Origin: Pseudanabaena sp. FACHB-1998
Lineage (GTDB): Bacteria > Cyanobacteriota > Cyanobacteriia > Pseudanabaenales > Pseudanabaenaceae
DNA length: 64,000 bases
Direction of reading: 5' to 3'
NCBI RefSeq assembly: GCF_014696355.1
Contig: NZ_JACJQA010000009.1
Coordinates: 1 to 64,000 of the forward strand
The notes under the pieces are model-generated. The model saw only the letters and a program-made list of their open reading frames with translations, was not told the origin of the DNA and made no database searches. The position numbers and the translations under genes are program-made. Shown here piece after piece: positions 61,597 through 64,000 of the stretch. Numbering within the stretch: the first letter of the stretch is position 1; every line of letters begins with the position of its first letter.

Positions 61597-61839
61597 CTAG
61601 TCAACATCGTCATCGTCGATATCGTCATCATCATCGTCGATGTAGCTAGCATCATCACCAAGCATTAATTCGCTTAATTCTTCAGCTTCATCATCAAACT
61701 TTAAGCTAGACTCAGTGCCTTCTCTAGCAATCAGGCGACCTGTAGATTCAAGCCAGTCCAAAATCGATACTTCTTGCTGGGTGGGAATGATCGCGGCTGG
61801 CTGATTGCGTCGTTGGACACGTAATGCGGGATTATTCAT
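61597..61839 (-). CDS. DUF3134 family protein
   Basis: 80 residues from ATG 61839, which gives the family start MNNPALRVQRRNQPAAIIPTQ; the 12 codons before it are not conserved. SILDWLESTGRLIARE is the signature. The end is a run of aspartates from residue about 64. Function unknown, cyanobacteria only as far as I know. Confidence 0.82.
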   Translation of the reverse strand: MNNPALRVQRRNQPAAIIPTQQEVSILDWLESTGRLIAREGTESSLKFDDEAEELSELMLGDDASYIDDDDDDIDDDDVD

Positions 61840-61904: not shown

Positions 61905-62243
61905 CTAGAAACCTGCGGGTAAACCTAAGCCACCAGTCAGCTCTTCCATTTTTTGCTTCATTGTGCTAGTTGAAAGTTGATAGGCATCTTTGAGGGCAGC
62001 AAGTACTAAGTCTGACAAAACTTCTGCGCCTTCATTTAGGGCTTCAGGAGCAATTTCTACGCCCTGAGGTTCTTGGTTGCCACTTAAAGTTACTTTAACT
62101 AATCCACCGCCTGATTCACCAGTTAGACGTAGTTGGTCTAATTCTTCTTGTAACTTTTTAGCGCCTTCTTGAATTTGCTGCGCTTTTTGGAAGGCTTCTT
62201 TCATTTTGCCTAAACCAAAGCCAAATCCTTTTCCGTCTGACAT
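61905..62243 (-). CDS. YbaB/EbfC nucleoid-associated protein
   Basis: 112 residues. [29 protein letters not shown] is the basic N-terminal helix; [23 protein letters not shown] the beta part; [32 protein letters not shown] the C-terminal helices. It binds DNA as a dimer with tweezer-like arms. The AT-rich gap to the PIN gene suggests its own promoter. Confidence 0.93.
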
Positions 62244-62317: not shown

Positions 62318-62758
62318 CTAGATATCCGTCCACAGACGCGCATCTACAAATCTAGATATATGTTTGACATTTGTAGTTGCCACAATAACCTCGTAGCCTT
62401 GCTGCACTTGTAACAAGGCTTGAGCCGCTAAAATCACATCCCCATCTAATGATTTCGGATCAGCCGTTGCTTGTCCACTTTGTCTCACCTCTGCCCATAA
62501 CTTTGCGGCATAGATCATGACAGATGTAGTAATTGGTAAATAAATGATTTCATTTTTTAATCGGTCTAAACGTTGAAGCCCTTTCAATTTGTTAGCCCGT
62601 ATTAACTCCCGTCTTAGCTCATAATCGGCAATTTCAGGAATTGCTACCTTATAACCTCTTGGTTCTAGAGTACTGAGCCACTTTAAACAATCTTGATTAG
62701 TTTTAGGGTTAGTTACCTTACCTAAAACACCTGTATCTAGTAGGACAAGTAGCTTCAT
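62318..62758 (-). CDS. PIN-domain toxin-like ribonuclease
   Basis: 146 residues. PIN acidic residues are in place: Asp8 in VLLDTGVLG, Glu42/Glu47 in IPEIADYELRRE, Asp105 and Asp107 in SLDGDVILAAQA, and TTNVKHISRF as last block. VapC-type toxins cut RNA. Its ATG overlaps the last 4 bases of the upstream gene (62755-62758), the usual antitoxin-toxin coupling. See the next entry for the unusual partner. Confidence 0.88.
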   Translation of the reverse strand: MKLLVLLDTGVLGKVTNPKTNQDCLKWLSTLEPRGYKVAIPEIADYELRRELIRANKLKGLQRLDRLKNEIIYLPITTSVMIYAAKLWAEVRQSGQATADPKSLDGDVILAAQALLQVQQGYEVIVATTNVKHISRFVDARLWTDI

Positions 62759-63480
62759 GCAGGTATCGGTCGATGGGACAATGTTCCATTGTTAAGGGCA
62801 TTCCGAAGATAATTCCAAGTTTCCTCTTGCTCGTTTGGGTCTTCTATATCTTCTGCTAGCCATTCTTCCGCTAATTTCGCCAAGCCTTGGCTTTGATTAT
62901 TTCTTATTCTCAAGGGATCTTGATCATCTATCCTAGAGATGATGTTTGCAAAGTAGCTATCTAGCTCGGTAACAATATCAGGATTTTTGAGTAGCGGTAC
63001 AGCCAACCTCTGGATTTGTCGGACTACGGTAATTAGAAATTGAATTTGTAAGGATTGGCTTGGGCTTTGTACAGATTTTAGGCTCAATTGTTCTAGGACT
63101 AATGCATCCGTACCGATGAGCGCGTAAGTAAGATAGCGCAAAATATTTTTGCAGTCGCTGGATATATCGGTTAGAAATTCTAGAGTAATCGATTCTTGGT
63201 TAATAGCTTCCCTTGTCCCCGTGATCGTGGTTTCTTGAGTAGCCGCTAAGATAGCTTCTTGGACTATTTTTTTCGCAGTAACTGTAAGTATCTGGACGAA
63301 TTCTAAGATTTCTCTTAATCGCAATAAAGATCCATCAGTATTGAATGTGTCCATAAATGAATTGGTATTAACATTAATGGCTAATTCAGTAACTGATGCA
63401 ATAGTTGGTTCAGATGTGATCATTGCAATATTTTGCATGGCTTTGTCCCTCATCTGTTTGTACTTAGTGCGCTTAGCCAT
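62755..63480 (-). CDS. Phycobiliprotein-like globin fused to an antitoxin-like tail
   Basis: 241 residues from ATG 63480 (MAKRTKYKQ); an ATG at 63498 and the longest frame to 63636 are less likely because they run into the lyase gene. Residues about 55-180 align by eye with the C-phycocyanin beta-chain: VQILTVTAKKIVQEA (about 62-76), SSDCKNILRYLTYALIGTDA (about 107-126) and TELDSYFANIISRI near 171-184. Where the bilin-binding Cys (CLRD) should be, this protein has ISSD; it has Cys110 four residues later. The last 52 residues (RIRNNQSQGLAKLAEEWLAED to LSHRPIPA) look like the small antitoxins next to PIN genes in cyanobacteria. A TTG at 62911-62913 could start that tail alone. Confidence 0.6.
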   Translation of the reverse strand: MAKRTKYKQMRDKAMQNIAMITSEPTIASVTELAINVNTNSFMDTFNTDGSLLRLREILEFVQILTVTAKKIVQEAILAATQETTITGTREAINQESITLEFLTDISSDCKNILRYLTYALIGTDALVLEQLSLKSVQSPSQSLQIQFLITVVRQIQRLAVPLLKNPDIVTELDSYFANIISRIDDQDPLRIRNNQSQGLAKLAEEWLAEDIEDPNEQEETWNYLRNALNNGTLSHRPIPA

Positions 63481-63502
63481 GATGCTAACACAGCCCATGA
63501 TG

Positions 63503-64000
63503 CTATGTACTAGCTGTAAATTCTTGACTAAAATCTTTGATTTTTTTGAATTTGTAAAAGTCCATAATTGCGCCCCAGATGGCTGTGCCTGTTTCAGGAT
63601 CGACTCCCCGATCGCCACTCCAAAATTCATCAGCACTAACCTCGAAACCTAAAACAACTTGACGCGATTCATTTAAATATTGAAAACAACATTTCGCATC
63701 TTTAGGCATTTCGGCTTTGTAGCGACCATTGGCAAAGAAAACATCTAGTGAGCAACCAGCGAGAGGTTCGATGTCATTAATGGTGATTTGATTGAGGCGA
63801 TCGCGATCGCGTCCAGCCCCAGTCCATGCACTCGGATCTTTAAATCCCCAATATTTCACTTGAATTTTGTCCTCATTTTCTACAAATTGCAAAATACGCT
63901 GACGATAGGGGCGATCGAGAATCAAGGCATTAGCCTGTTCGGCAAAGATAGCAGGGCTGCCCAAAAGGTTAGACGAAATGGGACGTTGCCACCAAACTAA
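63503..64000 (-). CDS. CpcT/CpeT-type phycobiliprotein lyase (5' end outside window)
   Basis: 165 residues are visible, without the start. QRPISSNLLGSPAIFAEQAN, LDRPYRQRILQF, QVKYWGFKDPSAWTGAGRD, LAGCSLDVFF and GVDPETGTAIWGAIMDFYKF match the CpcT/CpeT lyase family, which attaches phycocyanobilin or phycoerythrobilin to beta-chain cysteines (Cys-153-type). It is 22 bases upstream of the phycobiliprotein-like fusion, on the same strand, so they are probably one transcript. Confidence 0.88.
   Translation of the reverse strand, partial: LVWWQRPISSNLLGSPAIFAEQANALILDRPYRQRILQFVENEDKIQVKYWGFKDPSAWTGAGRDRDRLNQITINDIEPLAGCSLDVFFANGRYKAEMPKDAKCCFQYLNESRQVVLGFEVSADEFWSGDRGVDPETGTAIWGAIMDFYKFKKIKDFSQEFTAST

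Follow-up and report, generated by a model that had tools for sequence, protein, structure and literature searches.

The open reading frame just upstream of a PIN-domain gene in a 64,000-nt stretch of Pseudanabaena sp. FACHB-1998 DNA (contig NZ_JACJQA010000009.1, positions 1 to 64,000; hereafter, the window) encodes a phycobilisome-type globin that continues into an antitoxin-like tail, and the two genes very probably form a toxin-antitoxin pair of the PIN kind whose antitoxin carries the globin. The best overall explanation of the sequence data, to which we give a probability of roughly 0.8, is a VapBC-like, type II-like pair whose antitoxin would have recruited a phycobiliprotein fold as its N-terminal module. 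The PIN protein would be the toxin, presumably an RNase, and the C-terminal ~50 residues of the protein encoded upstream would be the part of the antitoxin that binds the toxin and gives specificity. The antitoxin N-terminal domain would be an exchangeable module, in relatives often small, DNA-binding or of a known antitoxin type, and in the window probably a recruited phycobiliprotein fold with its bilin cysteine lost. The locus comprises the following features, in window positions.

62755..63480, minus strand: putative globin-antitoxin coding sequence, 241 aa, stop codon included in the coordinates; same layout in relatives L005, L006 and L007
62932..63312, minus strand: phycobilisome-type globin domain, residues 57-183; PF00502, E 1.1e-9; model residues 42-192 align with phycobiliproteins
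62755..62913, minus strand: predicted antitoxin tail (tail A), residues ~190-241 plus stop; profile of non-globin partners, E 1.5e-9; recombination switch at ~62860-62920
62318..62758, minus strand: PIN-domain ribonuclease-like putative toxin coding sequence, 146 aa; PF01850, E 3.6e-6; conserved acids
62755..62758, minus strand: 4-nt ATGA overlap between antitoxin stop and toxin start, from the ORF coordinates; -4 is also the most frequent spacing in the two PIN families
62318..63502, no strand: segment that some congeneric loci have between cpcT and ebfC and others lack; its right edge is the PIN stop, and its left edge, near 63497, is not base-exact
63503..64000, continuing past the window, minus strand: CpcT/CpeT family flanking gene, outside the insert; PF06206, E 2e-40
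61905..62243, minus strand: ebfC/ybaB flanking gene, outside the insert; PF02575, E 2e-28

The pair thus lies between a CpcT/CpeT-family gene upstream and ebfC downstream. We placed the start of the globin-tail frame at the ATG at 63480, in agreement with the start of the relative in genome G015 (L005); an alternative GTG at 63636 would lengthen the frame. As originally predicted, the antitoxin stop and the PIN start overlap in the manner of VapBC, by the four nucleotides ATGA, and this -4 spacing was the commonest in the two PIN families described below (44/108 and 63/101 pairs). PF00502 (Phycobilisome) matched the globin with 38.9 bits against a cut-off of 22.2; the alignment begins at profile position 30, the globin being diverged and its N-terminal region weakly conserved. 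This was the sole Pfam match of the globin-tail protein at E <= 5, and the scan showed no Panacea domain. The N-terminal domain matched no known DNA-binding class, which lowers the claim of a textbook VapB and leaves that of a VapB-like mode of working as it was. The tail alone (62758-62913) matched nothing in Pfam, NCBIfam or PADLOC, and a promoter scan gave two weak sites against 4 expected. An in-frame TTG at 62911-62913, proposed as a start for separate production of the tail, is indeed present; the corresponding codons of the relatives differ (ACA in G015, TTA in G024, GCA in G011), so that it is conserved in 0/3 locus relatives, and no clear ribosome site precedes it. We rejected this candidate. 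Elsewhere in the window, a small Pseudanabaena ORF with an aspartate run (61597-61839, minus strand) adjoins ebfC and is conserved, with relatives at 12 to 13 of loci L325-L342.

The resemblance of the tail to antitoxins that precede PIN genes was assessed with a profile built independently of the globin proteins. A search of 388 cyanobacterial genomes with the PIN protein returned 95 genomes with a match at E <= 1e-8. We inspected 111 loci of this family, PIN A (L002 and L124-L233), and close copies in sister genomes count among them; weaker matches and most fragmentary ones were left out, and one further locus (L323) was fetched and remained uncounted. The tail A profile comprised 74 non-redundant tails from 102 non-globin PIN partners and no globin row; L226 and L233 were excluded by hand, and for three loci the mechanical list gave no partner ORF. 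It matched the window protein with 33.9 bits (E 1.5e-9), compared with a best E of 0.025 among 200 shuffles of the last 70 residues; the next window ORF appeared at E 1.6, leaving the fusion as the only clear match.

Across the family, a tail of at least 8 bits was found just upstream of the PIN gene and on the same strand in 110/111 loci, with 1 hit elsewhere. This count is in part circular, since the profile drew on 102 of the loci, though not on the four globin loci. The predicted resemblance thus holds up: a lack of similarity had been named as a possible refutation, and the tail does match PIN-linked antitoxins. Non-toxic PIN homologues without this partner had likewise been named, and here the partner was present in 110 of the 111 loci and absent in one. 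This single exception, L226, is a PIN A relative with a 258-aa upstream ORF in which no tail was detectable. The PIN proteins themselves keep their acidic residues almost throughout: in 107 PIN A rows, with the window counted twice, D8 and E47 were each retained in 107, D105 in 105 and D107 in 106. The only solved relative among the matches listed, FitB (2h1c), was a weak match (E 0.086). The genome of the window also encodes a separate 125-aa ORF with a similar tail at its end, which has a four-base overlap with another PIN gene. In all, two PIN A pairs with non-globin antitoxins were observed in this genome besides the window pair (L002, 770-1596 of G000:C51; L231, G000:C38). Both this PIN family and the second one described below occur on a few cyanobacterial plasmids.

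The pair occupies a site that is empty in many congeneric genomes. We surveyed 26 genomes, 4 of which had no cpcT match and two extra rows of which were distant cpcT paralogues. Of the resulting 22 congeneric cpcT loci, 4 carried the pair and 12 had cpcT immediately next to ebfC; a contig end, or the position of ebfC outside the stretch, left the other 6 unassigned. In the 8 of 12 empty sites that were compared, the sequence resumes right after the PIN stop codon; we infer an insertion at this site rather than repeated loss.

The occupied sites are mosaic. Residue identity between the window and G011 is 92% in the tail and 95% in the PIN protein compared with 33% in the globin, and between the window and G015 it is 78% in the globin, 53% in the tail and 73% in the PIN protein. 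The window locus therefore combines a globin of the G015/G024 type with a tail and PIN of the G011 type, and at the DNA level the switch falls at ~62860-62920, the border of globin and tail. Because it falls there, tail and toxin have been swapped together, with the globin as a separate module: at a single locus, the predicted toxin-binding tail has moved along with its toxin, and the break lies cleanly between two domains.

The same modularity is visible across the tail A family, whose N-terminal modules include an RHH-like type, an EIEATPREYW module, DUF433, HTH_17, an AF2212-like type and others. Pfam analysis of seven tail A partners gave DUF433 (E 1.4e-19), HTH_17 (2e-8) and AF2212-like (3e-6) matches, with Phd/YefM (3.6e-4) and a FitA-like RHH (0.021) below cut-off; the latter, weakly FitA-like hit came from L189, a partner of the commonest non-globin kind. 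At L177, DUF433, a known PIN antitoxin family, stands ahead of tail A, giving two antitoxin modules in one protein. A globin precedes tail A in 4/111 loci (the window, G011, G015 and G368). G024 also carries globin and tail A; its PIN gene is split, and it was read separately from the 111.

We also found a second tail, tail B, with a PIN family of its own (PIN B; 107/388 genomes at E <= 1e-20). The two tails are not one family: profile comparison found no similarity between them (probability 0.1%). The tail B profile was built without the globin rows and without six partners longer than 300 aa. Tail B reached at least 15 bits in the partner of 84/89 class-sample PIN B loci, a count that is likewise partly circular, and globins stood in 2 of these partners (G117 and G010). 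A scan of named genomes covered 16 loci, G117 and G010 among them, and yielded further fusions of globin and tail B from Coleofasciculus sp. LEGE 07092, Cyanobacteria bacterium UBA11370 and three Hormoscilla genomes. In the remaining nine loci, from Microcystis, Snowella, Crocosphaera and strain SU3, tail B occurs with no globin, in ORFs of 64-113 aa in the first three genera. The fused globin-antitoxin layout of the original prediction therefore recurs in other genomes, with tail A as well as with tail B.

Several tail B loci have unusual arrangements. Two tandem tail B ORFs precede one PIN gene, with no globin, in Microcystis L116, L118, L119 and L121. In Hormoscilla, tandem globin-antitoxin-like ORFs stand before the PIN gene (L113, 2470-3150 and 3245-3928; L111, 1691-2258 and 2467-3150; L112, 1701-2372 and 2467-3150), and the first copy of L111 looks broken. 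In 6/89 PIN B loci, an HsdS-like type I specificity subunit carries a C-terminal tail B (49-57 bits): L367 5586-9615, L368 5559-9588, L369 12605-16664, L370 11076-15126, L371 10216-14350 and L372 5843-9989. These ORFs overlap the PIN gene by 1 or 4 bases, and an HsdM-like gene lies ahead. Pfam, applied to L367 alone, gave PF01420, and N6_Mtase with HSDR_N_2; L368-L372 looked similar by eye. Flanking genes vary, and no hsdR was apparent by eye. These loci are possibly a mobile methylase-specificity-antitoxin-RNase cassette; a literature search by title returned no publication on an HsdS-antitoxin-PIN fusion.

The identity of the globin module rests on its family match. PF00502 exceeded its cut-off in 11/11 scanned proteins among 13 globin fusions (L006 and L112 were outside the scan), and the family itself occurs in 385/388 cyanobacterial genomes. 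Against NCBIfam, the Coleofasciculus, UBA11370 and Hormoscilla globins matched alpha-phycocyanin best, those of Lyngbya and SR411 beta-phycoerythrin, and that of G368 beta-allophycocyanin (118 bits); the window, G015 and G011 globins were weakly allophycocyanin-like (22 bits for the window). All are far under the NCBIfam cut-offs (best matches of 22-146 bits vs 228-275). An AlphaFold2 model of the window protein had a mean pLDDT of 64.8 and a pTM of 0.49. Residues 42-192 of the model aligned to smURFP and allophycocyanin with a VIA-align Z of about 15, and in Foldseek a chain of the phycobilisome core linker ranked first at E 5e-3, with nothing under 0.001; since helical models can reach such Z values by chance, it is the sequence match that carries weight for the fold. 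The Coleofasciculus fusion (L110, pLDDT 75) matched phycocyanin in Foldseek at E 4.5e-10.

A tree of 11/13 fusion globins (two near copies omitted) and 25 ordinary phycobiliproteins rejected a single clade for the fusions, with a log-likelihood 109 lower and a p-AU of 2.5e-105. We therefore discarded one common origin for all of them. On this unrooted tree, and with fusion assumed to be non-ancestral, the starred branches need three changes, or only two if the Lyngbya and SR411 rows (L108 and L109) are left out. The rejection of a joint clade of the window globins and G368 was marginal (p-AU 0.041). With support 99/96, the window clade falls beside the Lyngbya and SR411 rows, whose tail and toxin are of the other kind, a grouping that is unsure because long branches meet (SR411 with the window clade). 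The class of the window globin likewise differs by method, weakly allophycocyanin in NCBIfam vs a position among beta-phycocyanin/phycoerythrin-type rows in the tree. The data suggest about three captures from different phycobiliprotein classes, the number being less sure than the rejection of a single origin.

Further searches for fusions were largely negative. For the L225 type, only G368 had a full-length fusion among 61 genomes of its family. For the L110 type, none was present among the matches listed (242 genomes), a weak negative because ordinary phycocyanins crowd those matches. Plasmid carriage of the fusion was not found, the six records that match the Lyngbya globin covering under 80%, and no viral carriage was found for close relatives of the window fusion.

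The original prediction regarded the globin as a pigment-protein-like sensor, possibly linked to the phycobilisome. The sensor part was weakened by the loss of the bilin-binding residue: cysteine 84 is kept in 3/13 fusions, with the C-x-R-D bilin motif retained in Lyngbya L108 and the cysteine in Coleofasciculus L110 and UBA11370 L115. It is gone in the other 10/13 (the window protein, its three locus relatives, L225, SR411 and four Hormoscilla rows) and present in 13/13 comparison rows, a set that counts the Lyngbya fusion as one row. With so few fusions keeping the cysteine, pigment sensing is unlikely, and we consider a bilin- or light-sensing antitoxin very improbable; the three fusions that keep the residue speak for it, and the 10 without it, together with the present/absent nature of the site next to cpcT, speak against it.

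The phycobilisome link stood in part. We set aside permanent membership of a phycobilisome operon through cpcT, since cpcT and ebfC adjoin without the pair in 12/22 congeneric loci. Across loci, proximity to phycobilisome genes is commoner for the globin types than for other PIN loci. A phycobilisome-related gene was present in the fetched stretch of 3/203 non-globin PIN loci vs 2/6 globin locus types over a similar reach (p 0.007), where the six types were lumped after the fact and the ordinary-phycobiliprotein profile used for the count contains the Lyngbya fusion as one row. The two linked types are that of the window (cpcT) and that of Lyngbya (a CpeS-like lyase 62 bases off); with G368, whose CpeT-family gene is separated from the pair by one gene and came into view only over a longer stretch, the figure becomes 3/6. 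The Lyngbya pair is situated within a phycobilisome cluster, in which Pfam identified two bilin reductases, two CpeS-like lyases, a rod linker and another phycobiliprotein, and in which more phycocyanin-like and linker-like genes were recognized by eye. Within 3 kb, no phycobilisome neighbour was seen at SR411 (by eye only), Coleofasciculus, UBA11370 or Hormoscilla; the only phycobiliprotein-type genes near the Hormoscilla pairs were tandem or degenerate globin-antitoxin copies. NblA passed the Pfam cut-off in 4 of 7 searched fusion genomes; the window genome had one match of 24.0 bits against a cut-off of 25, and none was found in G015 and G010.

Decay of the fusion loci agrees with a toxin-antitoxin relationship. 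In 3/12 of them the toxin frame is broken and an antitoxin frame kept (L006 of G024, L109 of SR411 and L112 of Hormoscilla SP12CHS1); the G024 antitoxin frame starts 14 residues later, and its contig ends inside the gene. No intact toxin without an intact antitoxin frame was found in the 12 loci, the broken-looking copy in L111 being the first of a tandem. This pattern would be expected of a toxin, in small numbers. An ordinary, inert phycobiliprotein paralogue with a PIN gene downstream by chance might be envisaged given a family so large and so nearly universal in cyanobacteria; the tail profile match, the conserved overlap, the recurrence in several lineages and the mosaic border at the tail make it highly improbable.

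In the toxin-antitoxin pair that we favour, the tail would neutralise the PIN RNase, and the globin would provide dimerisation or stability together with a cue, through regulated degradation or partner binding, for release of the toxin. We propose such a tail block with globin-set turnover because characterised cyanobacterial PIN pairs use antitoxins proteolysed by Clp or Lon: in Synechocystis, the antitoxin neutralises the toxin and proteolysis frees it (PMC3834315, PMC5924515). We lean towards the globin being an oligomerisation and regulatory module rather than inert ballast. It may nevertheless be only a folding, dimerisation or stability domain, taken up since a phycobiliprotein gene adjoined a tail-PIN cassette where it landed, a tenable possibility that we do not favour. 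The great diversity of N-terminal modules in both tail families, the existence of the short, globin-free tail B proteins in Microcystis, Snowella and Crocosphaera, the absence of the bilin cysteine from most fusions and the nearby phycobilisome genes, which would ease capture, all fit it. Several captures of one fold class, from different phycobiliprotein families, argue against it, yet phycobiliprotein genes are abundant in these organisms. A more daring, unlikely proposal is that the globin serves as a decoy for antenna degradation by NblA/ClpC: the antitoxin would be lost along with the antennae during nitrogen starvation or phage attack, and the PIN RNase freed. Here the repeated capture of phycobiliprotein folds onto PIN antitoxins counts in favour, as do the proteolytic switching of cyanobacterial PIN antitoxins by Clp or Lon (PMC3834315, PMC5924515), the Lyngbya cluster and the enrichment of globin types near phycobilisome genes. 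It is opposed by the patchy detection of NblA, above cut-off in just over half of the fusion genomes searched, and by the badly conserved N-terminal region of the window globin.

Taken with the HsdS fusions, these proteins raise the doubtful but broader idea that tail and PIN RNase constitute a portable addiction or guard cassette, welded onto the C-terminus of watched host proteins such as phycobiliproteins and HsdS, whose breakdown would free the RNase. The carrier would itself become the antitoxin, and dismantling it would therefore release the RNase and stop the cell. Triggers, if this were true, would include NblA-ClpC antenna breakdown, through starvation or phage-borne NblA, and attack on the restriction enzyme; a toxin in cyanobacteria would then sense the breakdown of the cell's own light-harvesting antenna. 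Some cyanophages carry nblA. The PrrC tRNase, linked to a type I restriction enzyme, offers a parallel as an RNase silenced by a cellular protein complex and activated by a phage factor directed against that complex (PMC2610378); it shares no homology with the present system and is an analogy only, the release step being conjectural here.

Compared with known systems, the VapBC-like pair that we favour shares with VapBC and other type II PIN modules, including FitAB, the PIN toxin, a small upstream antitoxin gene, a short overlap and a patchy distribution, as well as a two-part antitoxin with, here by prediction, a C-terminal toxin-binding part. It differs in having a phycobiliprotein-fold N-terminus in place of RHH, AbrB, HTH or Phd, and a tail without a Pfam or NCBIfam model. 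PIN-COG2442 (DUF433) pairs such as vapBC10 are also cyanobacterial PIN pairs, and L177, with DUF433 and tail A, resembles them; the ClpXP-degraded antitoxin of a vapBC10-type pair provides a precedent for regulation (PMC2701414, PMC3834315). VapB10 binds its own promoter, whereas the globin here has no known DNA-binding function. Ordinary phycobiliproteins (ApcA/B, CpcA/B, CpeA/B) have the same fold and Pfam family, and the fusions fall near three of their classes; they are set apart from the fusions, in which the bilin cysteine is mostly lost, an antitoxin tail and coupling to PIN are present, and NCBIfam scores are below cut-off. Panacea/NetFlax antitoxins likewise have exchangeable domains, some combining a dedicated neutralisation domain with an accessory domain (PMC10440598); the pair described here has no Panacea domain, and its other module is a photosynthetic antenna fold. 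Ssr8013-Slr8014 of pSYSG, an experimentally tested pair (PMC4963859), matched neither the PIN A/tail A nor the PIN B/tail B families.

Modular antitoxins as such are already known (PMC2701414, PMC10440598). For a fusion of a phycobilisome protein or phycobiliprotein with an antitoxin, a search by title, with preprints and most subscription journals outside its coverage, found no publication among the titles listed, in keeping with the original remark that no described system of this layout was known. The finding joins antenna proteins and toxin-antitoxin systems, which we did not find joined in the literature searched. A photosynthetic fold has been captured repeatedly, in two unrelated PIN antitoxin families, and this makes it testable whether growth arrest or abortive infection is linked to phycobilisome state: the condition of the antenna may govern some toxin-antitoxin pairs.
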